Source of the DNA: Limosilactobacillus reuteri | Lineage (GTDB): Bacteria; Bacillota; Bacilli; Lactobacillales; Lactobacillaceae | DNA: 52,676 nt | Assembly: GCF_020784725.1 (NCBI RefSeq) | Contig: NZ_JAJGTZ010000034.1 | Span: 1 to 52,676, forward strand | Direction: 5' to 3' | Shown: positions 8,668-52,190 of the stretch, in pieces | Layout of the letters: every line of letters starts with the position of its first letter | Numbering within the stretch: the stretch's first letter is position 1 | Translations under genes and position numbers: made by a program | Notes under the pieces: model-generated | What the model was told of the DNA's origin: nothing | Seen by the model: the letters and a program-made list of their open reading frames with translations, nothing else | Databases searched by the model: none

Positions 8668-8717
8668 AAGGGAGCAAGATAAAAGTCGCTCGTGACTGAT
8701 ATCTTGCTCCCTTATTT
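8668..8717 (+). terminator. Strong intrinsic terminator
   Basis: A perfect 14-bp stem, AAGGGAGCAAGATA with TATCTTGCTCCCTT, is followed by ATTTTG. It separates the dehydrogenase gene from the rsmG operon. Confidence 0.85.
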
Positions 8718-25294: not shown

Positions 25295-25311
25295 CATAAA
25301 TAACAAAAATA

Positions 25312-25400
25312 CCTTTAACTTAGTCCCGTGAGGCTAGGAAGGATTTAATTGAGCGTTTAAGTACACCTTCTTAGCTATTGCTGAGGAGGTTTTTCTTTTA
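25312..25400 (+). promoter_or_regulatory. PyrR-dependent attenuator 1
   Basis: TAGTCCCGTGAGGCTA with flanking CCTT/AAGG pairing (25312-25342) matches the PyrR-binding anti-antiterminator loop. It is followed by a terminator, ACCTTCTTAGC with GCTGAGGAGGT and TTTTTCTTTT (25364-25399). With UMP-bound PyrR the loop is held and the terminator forms, so transcription stops when pyrimidines are plentiful. Confidence 0.85.
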
Positions 25401-49365: not shown

Positions 49366-50412
49366 ATGAAAATGGAAAAACAACGAACACTCCCAATGAA
49401 GGAATTTTTTCCTTCATTGAAAGAACTGGTAAAGCCTAACTATTTAAAGGCAATGTGGCCAGTTGCAGGGGTATCAATTATTTTTATTGCTTTAGTAGCG
49501 ATCTTAGCACTCCTTAATTCAAATATTGCTGCCTCATTGAGTATGACAATGATGATGGTAATGTACGGAATGGCTTCCCCAGTTGCAATCTTGTTCTCAT
49601 TATTAGAAATTGTGGGGATTGTCGCAATTATTGCTGCGTTAGCTTTCTTCTATACTTTCTTTGGCGTTGCTACTCAATATACATACCAAGATAAGATGGC
49701 TCATCCAGAACAACCAGTTAGTGCTGGCTCAATCTGGATGCACTATAAGCACTTGCGAAAGAATCAAGTATGGCGGATCGTGCTTTATATTGGATTGTTC
49801 ACTTTCTTATGGAGTTTACCACTCAACATTGTTAATGCATTGCTCTTGCCACGTTTATCAGGCGTTGCTGCTGTTTATACTGGGTGGGCAATTCGAATCC
49901 TTAACGATATTGTTGTATTGTGGAAGAGTATCGAATATTCGCAGTCATACTTCCTTTATCGTGAAAAACAACCACAATTCCTTGGTCAATCAATGCGTTA
50001 TGCCTTAACTGCTAGTCGGCGGTTCATGACTGGTCGAAAGTGGAACTACTTTGTAATTCTGTTTGTTTTAGAATTCCTTCCAATTTTTATCTGGACCTTA
50101 ATTTTGGGTGGATTGGCATTTTACGGTGTTTACACGGCAACTTATGTCCTCACTTATATCGGAATCGTCTTAGTGATTGTTGGTATTTCCTGCTACCTTC
50201 CAGTGGTATATGCAATTCTTGCTTTGTACTACAACAAGGCTCGAGCAGGAATGGAAATGGATGTGCTCTTCAAGGATACTTTTAAGCCAGTAGCCGAATT
50301 AACCGGTGAAGCTTATGTTCATGAAGTATATGTAGAAAAACAACCAAAAGAACAGCCATCACCAACTGTTAAGCGGGATGATGAAAAAGAAACACGAAGC
50401 AAAAAAAGATGA
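49366..50412 (+). CDS. DUF975-like integral membrane protein
   Basis: This 348-residue protein of unknown function has about six to seven hydrophobic segments (residues 35-55, 60-80, 85-110, 140-160, 230-255, 260-290) and a charged cytoplasmic C-terminus rich in Lys, Glu and Arg (EKQPKEQPSPTVKRDDEKE). The segment IEYSQSYFLYREKQPQF, followed by ALTASRRFMTGRKWNYF, resembles the conserved block of DUF975 proteins, in which a pre-helix YS-x-AF-Y motif precedes a G-x-K-W stretch. The match is from memory and moderate. GGTGGAG precedes the ATG. Monocistronic between a promoter and a bidirectional terminator. Confidence 0.65.
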   Translation: MKMEKQRTLPMKEFFPSLKELVKPNYLKAMWPVAGVSIIFIALVAILALLNSNIAASLSMTMMMVMYGMASPVAILFSLLEIVGIVAIIAALAFFYTFFGVATQYTYQDKMAHPEQPVSAGSIWMHYKHLRKNQVWRIVLYIGLFTFLWSLPLNIVNALLLPRLSGVAAVYTGWAIRILNDIVVLWKSIEYSQSYFLYREKQPQFLGQSMRYALTASRRFMTGRKWNYFVILFVLEFLPIFIWTLILGGLAFYGVYTATYVLTYIGIVLVIVGISCYLPVVYAILALYYNKARAGMEMDVLFKDTFKPVAELTGEAYVHEVYVEKQPKEQPSPTVKRDDEKETRSKKR

Positions 50413-50419
50413 ATAGTGA

Positions 50420-50465
50420 AAAAAGAGGCTGAGAAAAAATTTATTTTTTCAACAGCCTCTTTTTT
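50420..50465. terminator. Bidirectional terminator
   Basis: AAAAAGAGGCTG pairs with CAGCCTCTTTTT, with T-runs on both strands. It would end the membrane protein gene on the + strand and the putative structured RNA on the - strand. Confidence 0.8.
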
Positions 50466-50487
50466 ATACGAATCTTGTTACGATATC

Positions 50488-50622
50488 GTGGAAATCCTCG
50501 TAGGCTAGCTTCGCGTCGTAACTACAAGGCTCGAGGCTAAGTCCGAACGATAATCAGCCCGTGCCGTGCTAATCACCGTTCTATCCTTAGCCCACCGCCT
50601 TGTCGAGGAAGTTAATTCCCAC
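50488..50622 (-). ncRNA. Putative structured RNA (or structured repeat) on the - strand
   Basis: The 135-base stretch folds into one long branched rod. On + coordinates the arms are 50488-50494 with 50616-50622, 50495-50500 with 50604-50609, 50524-50530 with 50597-50603, 50535-50541 with 50586-50592 and 50545-50558 with 50568-50581. Four pairs that would be A-C mismatches in a + transcript (50492/50618, 50550/50576, 50552/50574, 50555/50571) are G-U wobbles in a - transcript. This points to the - strand as the functional one. It is GC-richer than its flanks, and a terminator lies downstream on the - strand at 50420-50465. I do not recognise the family. It could be a small RNA or a copy of a mobile structured repeat. 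Confidence 0.55.
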
Positions 50623-50646
50623 TCACTTTTGTGTTTTAAATACTTC

Positions 50647-50676
50647 TTGACAGTAATCGTTAATTCCATGTACAAT
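50647..50676 (+). promoter_or_regulatory. Sigma-A promoter of tyrS
   Basis: TTGACA (50647-50652) and TACAAT (50671-50676) are 18 bases apart. Transcription would start near 50683. Confidence 0.75.
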
Positions 50677-50682
50677 GACGGC

Positions 50683-50912
50683 AATAACCAAAGATGAAGA
50701 AGTAATTTTAGTAGTAAGCGGCTGGACATTTAGGAAGCAAGTGGTAACTGTAAACTTTGCCAATGCCGTTATACGAATTACACTTACGGAGTCTTTCAGT
50801 ATTTGAACGGATCGTCTCGTTATCGACTAGAGTGGTAGCTATTTAGTTGCAAATCAAGGTGGTAACGCGGTAAATCGTCCCTGACTTCATTATTTGAAGT
50901 TGGGGATTTTTT
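50683..50912 (+). promoter_or_regulatory. Tyrosine T-box riboswitch leader of tyrS
   Basis: The specifier loop has the expected pieces: AGTA before and GAA (50775-50777) after the stem built from GTAAGCGGC and GCCGTTATAC, then one base and the specifier TAC (50779-50781). The T-box GGTGGTAACGCGG (50858-50870) carries TGGT, matching the A discriminator of tRNA-Tyr. A terminator with a T-run (50873-50912) follows. Specifier, T-box and downstream gene all agree on tyrosine. This and the - strand RNA fill the 527-base gap before tyrS. Confidence 0.92.
50873..50912 (+). terminator. T-box regulated terminator of tyrS
   Basis: AATCGTCCC and TGACTTC pair with GAAGTT and GGGGATT (with wobbles), followed by a T-run. 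Confidence 0.85.
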
Positions 50913-50939
50913 GTATCCGAGAAATTTATGGAGGTAAAC

Positions 50940-52190
50940 ATGGATATTCTTAATGAACTAGAATGGCGTGGGGCTATTAACCAAGTTACAGACGAAGAAG
51001 GCTTACGCAAATTAACATCAGAAGATAAAATTGCTCTTTACTGTGGAACGGACCCAACCGGGGATAGTCTTCATATTGGGCACTTAATTCCATTTATGAT
51101 TTTGAAACGGTTCCAATTAGCTGGTCACCACCCAGTAATTATTATTGGGGGAGGAACTGGTGCAATTGGTGATCCATCCGGCCGAAAGTCAGAACGGCAG
51201 CTTCAAACAATGGATCAAGTTCACCACAACGAAGAAGCATTAACTGCTCAAATGAAGAAGTTATTCGGCACTGAAAACTTCACGATTGTAAACAACTACG
51301 AATGGTTATCAAAGATCAGCTTGTTAGACTTCCTTCGTGACTACGGTAAACTGTTTAACATCAACACCATGTTAAATAAGGAAGTAGTAGCAAGTCGGTT
51401 AGATGCTGGAATTTCATTTACTGAGTTCACTTACCAAATTCTTCAATCAGTCGATTTCCTTCATCTTTATCGTCACAACGATGTGCAATTACAAATTGGT
51501 GGCTCCGATCAGTGGGGAAACATCACTGCCGGGATTGATTTGATTCATAAGGTTGAAGGACCAGATACTAAGGTTTACGGACTTACCATTCCATTAATGC
51601 TCAAAGCTGATGGAACTAAATTTGGAAAGACTGCGGGTGGTGCAATTTGGCTTGACCCAGAAAAGACTTCTCCATACGAATTTTATCAATTCTGGATTAA
51701 CCAAGATGACCGTGACGTTATTAAATACTTGAAGTACTTCACTTTCTTATCAAAGGAAGAAATTGATGACTTGGCAGAAAAAGTTGAGAAAGAACCATGG
51801 AAGCGAGAAGCTCAACGTCGCCTAGCCCAAGAAGTAACTAAATTTGTTCATGGCCAAGAAGCAGTTGAAGAAGCAGAACGAATTAGTAAAGCATTGTTCT
51901 CTGGGGATGTTGCTGACCTTTCTGCTGCAGAAATTGAACAAGGCTTTAAGAATATGCCTTCAGTAGATGTAGAAAATAAGAAAGAAAATATTGTTATTTG
52001 GTTAACCGATAATGGTATTGAACCTTCACGTCGCCAAGCTCGGCAAGATGTATCGAGTGGGGCTATCAGAATTAATGGGGAAAAAGTTGACGATGTTGAC
52101 GCCGAGATTGATCCCCAAGCGCATTTTGATGGTAAGTTTGTGATTGTCCGGAAGGGTAAGAAGCACTATTACTTAGCTCGCGTAAAATAA
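50940..52190 (+). CDS. tyrS: Tyrosyl-tRNA synthetase
   Basis: This 416-residue class I synthetase charges tRNA-Tyr. The HIGH motif is in GDSLHIGHLIPF near residue 45, the tyrosine-binding YQILQSVDFLHLY and GGSDQWGNITAGIDLI blocks follow, and the KMSKS-equivalent is KFGKTAGGAIWLD. An S4 RNA-binding domain covers the C-terminus (about 350-416: PSRRQARQDVSSGAIRINGE). The start is the ATG after GGAGGT; the ATG at 50928 lies before that ribosome binding site. Control by the tyrosine T-box upstream is clear. Confidence 0.96.
   Translation: MDILNELEWRGAINQVTDEEGLRKLTSEDKIALYCGTDPTGDSLHIGHLIPFMILKRFQLAGHHPVIIIGGGTGAIGDPSGRKSERQLQTMDQVHHNEEALTAQMKKLFGTENFTIVNNYEWLSKISLLDFLRDYGKLFNINTMLNKEVVASRLDAGISFTEFTYQILQSVDFLHLYRHNDVQLQIGGSDQWGNITAGIDLIHKVEGPDTKVYGLTIPLMLKADGTKFGKTAGGAIWLDPEKTSPYEFYQFWINQDDRDVIKYLKYFTFLSKEEIDDLAEKVEKEPWKREAQRRLAQEVTKFVHGQEAVEEAERISKALFSGDVADLSAAEIEQGFKNMPSVDVENKKENIVIWLTDNGIEPSRRQARQDVSSGAIRINGEKVDDVDAEIDPQAHFDGKFVIVRKGKKHYYLARVK

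Follow-up and report, generated by a model that had tools for sequence, protein, structure and literature searches.

What is the strongly folding segment that lies ahead of tyrS in Limosilactobacillus reuteri, an RNA gene that belongs to this locus or one copy of something that moves? The segment occupies positions 50488–50622 of the 52,676-nucleotide stretch analysed here (the window), and the original prediction described it as a structured RNA on the minus strand, unlike any known family, that could be either a dedicated small RNA or a structured dispersed repeat. The fold itself holds up: the minus strand of 50488–50622 folds at –60.2 kcal/mol (z –5.93), a value matched by none of 200 shuffles, versus –39.4 kcal/mol (z –2.45; matched by 2 of 200) for the plus strand. 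The one-sided wobbles, previously counted in four places, are there as well: of the 42 pairs in the minus strand of the copy at tyrS, 37 are Watson-Crick, five are G.U and none is A.C. In agreement with the predicted lack of a known family, the segment stays below the gathering score of every Rfam family, and none matches the rod at E-values up to 5. The sole above-threshold Rfam match in the window is a PyrR binding site at 25308–25397; the tyrS T-box leader, which adjoins the element, scores 69.1 bits, short of its gathering score of 93. The proposed setting is confirmed for tyrS, on the evidence of its Pfam domains, and not confirmed for the converging gene, which gave no Pfam match at 1e-3 to back its DUF975-like label. 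A protein-coding frame was rejected as the source of the conservation: copies differ by inserts and gaps with lengths that are not multiples of three, no frame is conserved, and the 74-aa ORF has no Pfam match.

Features of the element and its surroundings at the tyrS locus (window coordinates)
Feature	Position	Strand	Basis or remark
Whole element (rod, linker and terminator), about 205 bp	50420..50626	-	profile match 50421–50626; limits 50488–50622 of the original prediction slightly narrow
Rod: outer stem, two inner stems, apical stem, 9-nt loop	50482..50624	-	R1 match, 140.7 bits; covariation
Optional side-hairpin insert	50496..50523	-	limits set by eye
Linker from rod to terminator	50466..50481	-	alignment of copies
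Element-borne intrinsic terminator, palindromic	50420..50465	-	function inferred
Converging gene, with the element at its end	49366..50412	+	no Pfam match at 1e-3
Promoter-like site just past the element 5′ end, upstream of the tyrS T-box	50647..50676	+	
tyrS, with T-box leader at 50688–50885 (+)	50928..52190	+	Pfam tRNA-synt_1b, SYY C-terminal, S4

The second of the two predicted alternatives, the dispersed repeat, is the one supported, with about 30 copies in the same genome. A 171-base query gave 47 matches there at E-values up to 1, comprising 21 long copies, 18 matches to a single 20-mer that is common to another repeat family, and others. A covariance model built from 32 copies gave 30 matches in this genome and detected the element in 32 of the 50 genomes searched within the genus. 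At the tyrS site itself the four nearest relatives carry a plain terminator, and the element profile had no match at 29 other tyrS loci, a set that includes one locus from an artefact-like genome, one with masked bases and some from distant species with a different upstream gene. A dedicated minus-strand small RNA gene at the tyrS locus, the first of the predicted alternatives, would account for the structure, the strand bias and the terminator. However, the sequence is multicopy, it is not at the same place in relatives, and no sigma-70-like site was found on the minus strand between 50300 and 51000, which makes such a gene very improbable.

The element is conserved end to end, both among the copies of its own genome and in other species. 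Its rod varies between 119 and 143 nt across copies and has a G+C content of about 50%. The outer stem (GTGGGAAATAACC/GGTTATTTTCCAC in copies that lack the insert) is followed by a 7-bp stem, a third stem, an internal loop and a 14-bp apical stem; the linker and the terminator, which has the pattern GAGGCTG..CAGCCTC, make up the 3′ part. Side hairpins are optional. The predicted terminator is present as a hairpin with a T tract and is conserved as part of the same element; being palindromic, it probably also ends the converging plus-strand gene. In the reuteri group the ends are an A-tract/T-tract and GAG/CTC. Most of the 28 copies compared from other species have the same order of parts with strongly differing sequences, and the internal loops look alike by eye in distant species. 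The optional insert holds CGACGCGAAGCTAGCCT (50502–50518), a stretch common to another dispersed family, and many copies lack the insert. Four copies (L222, L226, L230 and L218) carry a second optional insert, of the CTTGCTTCGCGGCG type, which by eye is nearly the reverse complement of the first, and the two could pair where one copy carries both.

The compensatory changes that the original prediction anticipated are present. Both sides have changed in 19 of the 42 pairs, whereas slid controls give 6–8 such pairs and shuffles a mean of 5.1, and 92% of cells can pair, compared with 28–46% when slid and 89% when shuffled. The predicted preference for the minus strand is found at the level of the family: 33 distinct rows of divergent members (45 model matches less 11 on the opposite strand and one duplicate, L032 being identical to L218) hold 103 G.U versus 6 A.C cells, at 26 versus 6 of 41 positions, a ratio that treats rows as independent of shared ancestry, as do all our G.U and A.C counts, and that leans to G.U since these members are mostly best hits of the RNA model and were all aligned by it. 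In the subfamily of the own genome, aligned by sequence, G.U is the commonest pair in five columns and A.C in none. In contrast, the selection on the minus strand that had been read into the tyrS copy leaves no sign in single copies. Compared with the subfamily consensus over helices 3–5, 28 distinct copies (three distant ones and one identical row were left out) show 15 changes to G.U and 18 to A.C (11 and 16 distinct), together with eight other mismatches and three double changes to Watson-Crick pairs; 14 changes that start from non-Watson-Crick pairs were set aside. The G035 copies L024 and L046 are included in this alignment (A2), and without the L028 and G035 rows the counts are still 15 and 18. 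With the caveats attached to these counts, family members keep a strand-specific fold while the changes of single copies have no strand bias. The folded sense strand therefore appears to be selected in the lineage that founds copies, single inserted copies bearing no sign of it, and this pattern fits a mobile element better than an RNA acting at each locus. The contrast of a structured family with drifting copies makes it possible to tell selection for copying apart from selection for use by the host.

The state of orthologous sites bears on the same question. For 20 own copies, the upstream flank was traced in five relatives, one of which, G035, was excluded because it looks by eye like coding sequences strung together, leaving 20 × 4 = 80 cells; three, all of site L020, were not located. 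Among the 77 examined, 45 hold a terminator-like hairpin (some with weak T tracts, and three at L065 that resemble a small version of another repeat, family B), 15 the element in the same orientation, five in the opposite one and one a partial copy in the opposite one, two a truncated remnant, five family B, two an IS-like sequence and one a group II intron, and one is unclear. These states come from a lax hairpin finder, which also called hairpins in G035 coding DNA, followed by reading by eye, in which both remnants were reassigned, together with the intron, the unclear case and one of the IS-like cases. G035 is a single-contig genome in which, judging by eye at several loci (L100, L104, L109, L114 and L168–L170), one coding sequence appears to start where the previous one stops, all on one strand, as in an assembly artefact.

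At three sites the element has opposite orientations in different genomes. At one of them, L006, the element has one orientation in the own genome and in G004 and the reverse one in three relatives; the own copy is also of a different subfamily from the copies of the other four genomes, so the site has been filled more than once. Both neighbours are called for 21 of 23 own copies, none of which lies between divergent genes; 2 of 30 sampled copies in G013, another carrier, appear to do so. A host-functional 3′-UTR RNA module, multicopy and kept for its benefit, for example in protein binding or mRNA stabilisation, would be at home at gene 3′ ends, could occur genus-wide and in tandem arrays, and would explain internal loops that look similar by eye in distant species. 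It would not readily explain why occupancy of a site varies between close relatives, why orientation at a site can differ, or why copy-level changes have no G.U preference, and we regard it as quite improbable.

Filled and empty sites in close relatives show directly what happens when the element is gained. One empty relative was chosen per site for 17 of the 20 sites (L006, L012 and L020 have no clean empty site), and in 17 of 17 pairs the host hairpin is wholly or partly missing from the filled site, several pairs (such as L002, L007, L008, L014 and L019) having lost more than the hairpin. The A-tract and T-tract are retained at filled sites, lower-stem bases are retained in several pairs (AGCAT/ATGCT at L003, and also at L005, L013 and L018), and L017 has a hybrid terminator in which the 5′ arm of the element is joined to the 3′ arm of the host. 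No target-site duplication is apparent by eye in the 17 pairs. In the compared reuteri-group genomes, then, the element occupies, in either orientation, the position of the resident terminator hairpin. Such replacement may not be the general pattern, given that sampled rods of G013 are often followed by a plain terminator unlike the element's type. Copies truncated at the 5′ end with the terminator kept occur at five sites (L067/L315, the same site in two genomes; L314; L325; L323; and L148/L150) and were not used to deduce a mechanism, because selection would keep terminators. Among the copies with broken 3′ ends is L322, which a group II intron interrupts.

Our best reading is that this is probably a non-autonomous, non-coding mobile element that spreads via a folded single strand and swaps with terminators. 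It is multicopy and covarying, its presence varies between close relatives, it lies at gene 3′ ends and it brings its own terminator; that it is parasitic is something we infer. In the mechanism that we propose, copying would need the folded sense strand, as RNA or as single-stranded DNA, and only well-folded members would found new copies. The A-tract/GAG and CTC/T-tract ends that the element has in common with terminators would enable a new copy to swap places with a resident hairpin, and the element, once placed, would act as a terminator. If this is true, terminator exchange reshapes the ends of genes in a bacterial genus found in the gut and in food.

The highest copy number is that of G013, with 133 matches when searched alone and at least 65 in the 50-genome search, in which weak copies go uncounted. 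Its 133 rods lie at 117 sites, 14 of which have two or three rods arranged head to tail, always on the same strand, with 1–5 bases between them. The 16 neighbouring pairs are 62–100% identical, 11 of them at most 78%, and 417 non-neighbouring pairs average 74%. Tandem duplication accounts for some arrays; in most, a different copy seems to have been joined on. By eye, a partial 5′ segment closes several arrays, with a plain terminator after it, and some sites carry inverted copies of the element 5′ end. Sites on the plus and minus strands number 38 and 31 in the second half of the contig and 21 and 27 in the first, no clear strand bias between halves that were taken without a located origin. 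Mini elements whose 5′ end is folded back on its own inverted copy occur in different species (L317, L318 and L371).

These arrays weigh on another account, in which template switching between terminators, through the short homology of A- and T-tracts, copies any large hairpin without a dedicated system. Such passive spread would leave what is seen in the hybrid terminator of L017, the retained lower-stem bases, the two orientations and the fold-back minis L317 and L318, and it would not call for a partner enzyme, of which none was found in searches for RVT_1 and Y1. Strand-specific covariation and conserved asymmetric loops, however, go beyond the needs of a palindrome, and same-strand, head-to-tail joining of mostly dissimilar units in G013 is hard to place in it; we think it unlikely. 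Beyond the mobile element that we favour, we put forward tentatively, and with more doubt than belief, that it represents a new mobile class, in which a folded single strand swaps with terminators either way and, in one species, joins copies that are not closely related head to tail, making terminators mobile cassettes.

Candidate partners were sought in 47 genomes of the genus. A reverse transcriptase (RVT_1) is present in 16 and had no match in G000, G013, G004, G002 and other carriers; a Y1 transposase (Y1_Tnp, the RAYT domain) is present in 30 and absent from ten carriers (G001, G009, G014, G023, G028, G030, G031, G038, G042 and G048). Neither enzyme can be obligatory when it is missing from so many carriers, unless it was lost, was missed in drafts or is supplied from outside. 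A classical MITE mobilised in trans by an insertion sequence would have the size, the copy number and the intergenic location of the element. The inverted 5′-end copies seen by eye at some G013 sites would also suit it, as would the likeness of family B ends to one end of an insertion sequence in G037. Against this, host sequence is lost and no target-site duplication is seen by eye in the 17 pairs, and no insertion sequence with matching ends was seen, the enzyme families searched being RVT_1 and Y1_Tnp. A MITE origin is in our judgement an improbable one, about on a par with passive spread.

The mobile element that we propose has parallels in several known systems. Integron attC cassette arrays are head-to-tail arrays of unlike units that rely on a folded single strand under structural selection. 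The element is similar in its folded strand and its head-to-tail arrays of unlike units; it differs in that its arrays have no visible cassette genes and no core-site match is shown. With REP/REPIN-RAYT systems it has in common that it is palindromic, extragenic and multicopy, whereas REPs measure 20–40 bp and ten carriers of the element have no Y1_Tnp; we found no mention of Lactobacillus or of a terminator in one account of REP/REPIN (PMC3733652). Group IIC introns are described as mobile, structured ribozymes with a reverse transcriptase that insert at intrinsic terminators (PMC4424553). Like them, the element is a mobile structured sequence at terminators; unlike them, it is not a ribozyme with a reverse transcriptase. 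Two group II introns were seen here, at L252 and L322.

Among the pneumococcal repeats, BOX and RUP are structured and short interspersed, BOX being modular, and target-site duplications are reported for them (PMC3049150, PMC10969869); in contrast, the element has no apparent target-site duplication and host sequence is lost. SPRITE, according to the first of these sources (PMC3049150), has AAAA/TTTT ends, is terminator-like, lies at CDS 3′ ends and is regarded as parasitic; it is AT-rich, with an 18-bp duplex and a U-rich tract, and its authors did not find empty sites that could easily be compared. On that description, our element is likewise dispersed, terminator-like and near CDS 3′ ends, with A-tract/T-tract ends. 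Unlike SPRITE, it has a covarying rod of about 50% G+C ahead of the terminator, and its empty sites show hairpin replacement. By its mode of working it may be classed as SPRITE-like, the nearest in kind, with no claim of common descent. A literature search, with most subscription journals outside its scope, found no description of the element.

In our samples the element is so far confined to one genus of lactic acid bacteria. Matches occurred in 8 of 251 genomes of the family, all belonging to this one genus among 40, and in 4 of 395 genomes of the order (1 of 80 genera), with none outside the genus; like every search of more than 40 genomes, these ran with stricter filters. A 29-base pattern taken from two subgroups matched 35 stretches in the GTDB collection, only in Limosilactobacillus oris, balticus and agrestis, Candidatus L. 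merdavium and one uncultured Lactobacillus MAG. Carriage by plasmids or phages was considered and rejected, as no plasmid or phage record matches.

Other repeats and mobile sequences occur around the same sites. Family B, of about 220 bp (GGGAGCGAGACAGAAGTCAC ... CTTATGTCACAGTCCC), is represented in the own genome by L049–L064 (for example L056, from about 280); it lies mostly at gene ends, occupies some of the same sites in relatives and has the CGACGCGAAGCTAGCCT stretch of the element. A short inverted pair like the family B ends, with up to four mismatches, lies at 8670–8711 of the window and is possibly a mini terminator. An insertion sequence, IS3-like by eye, occurs at L251 (G037) and L212, and its visible end, GGGGGCTGTGACATAAGTCCC, resembles a family B end; at L251 it sits within the terminator of site L018, with one end visible. 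The two group II introns (5′ GTGCGCCCGGC) are both in G036, that of L322 inside the element soon after the apical stem and that of L252 beside a retained terminator hairpin at a family A site. In L272 and L275 the 3′ part of the element is fused to another repeat near a shared CTAG stretch, the same hybrid being present in G034 and G036. Finally, the terminators of two G036 copies, L133 and L141, are cut by the same sequence (GGCTCTACAATATCTGG or GGCTTTACAATATCTGG), which is probably an insertion sequence that entered the terminator of the element.
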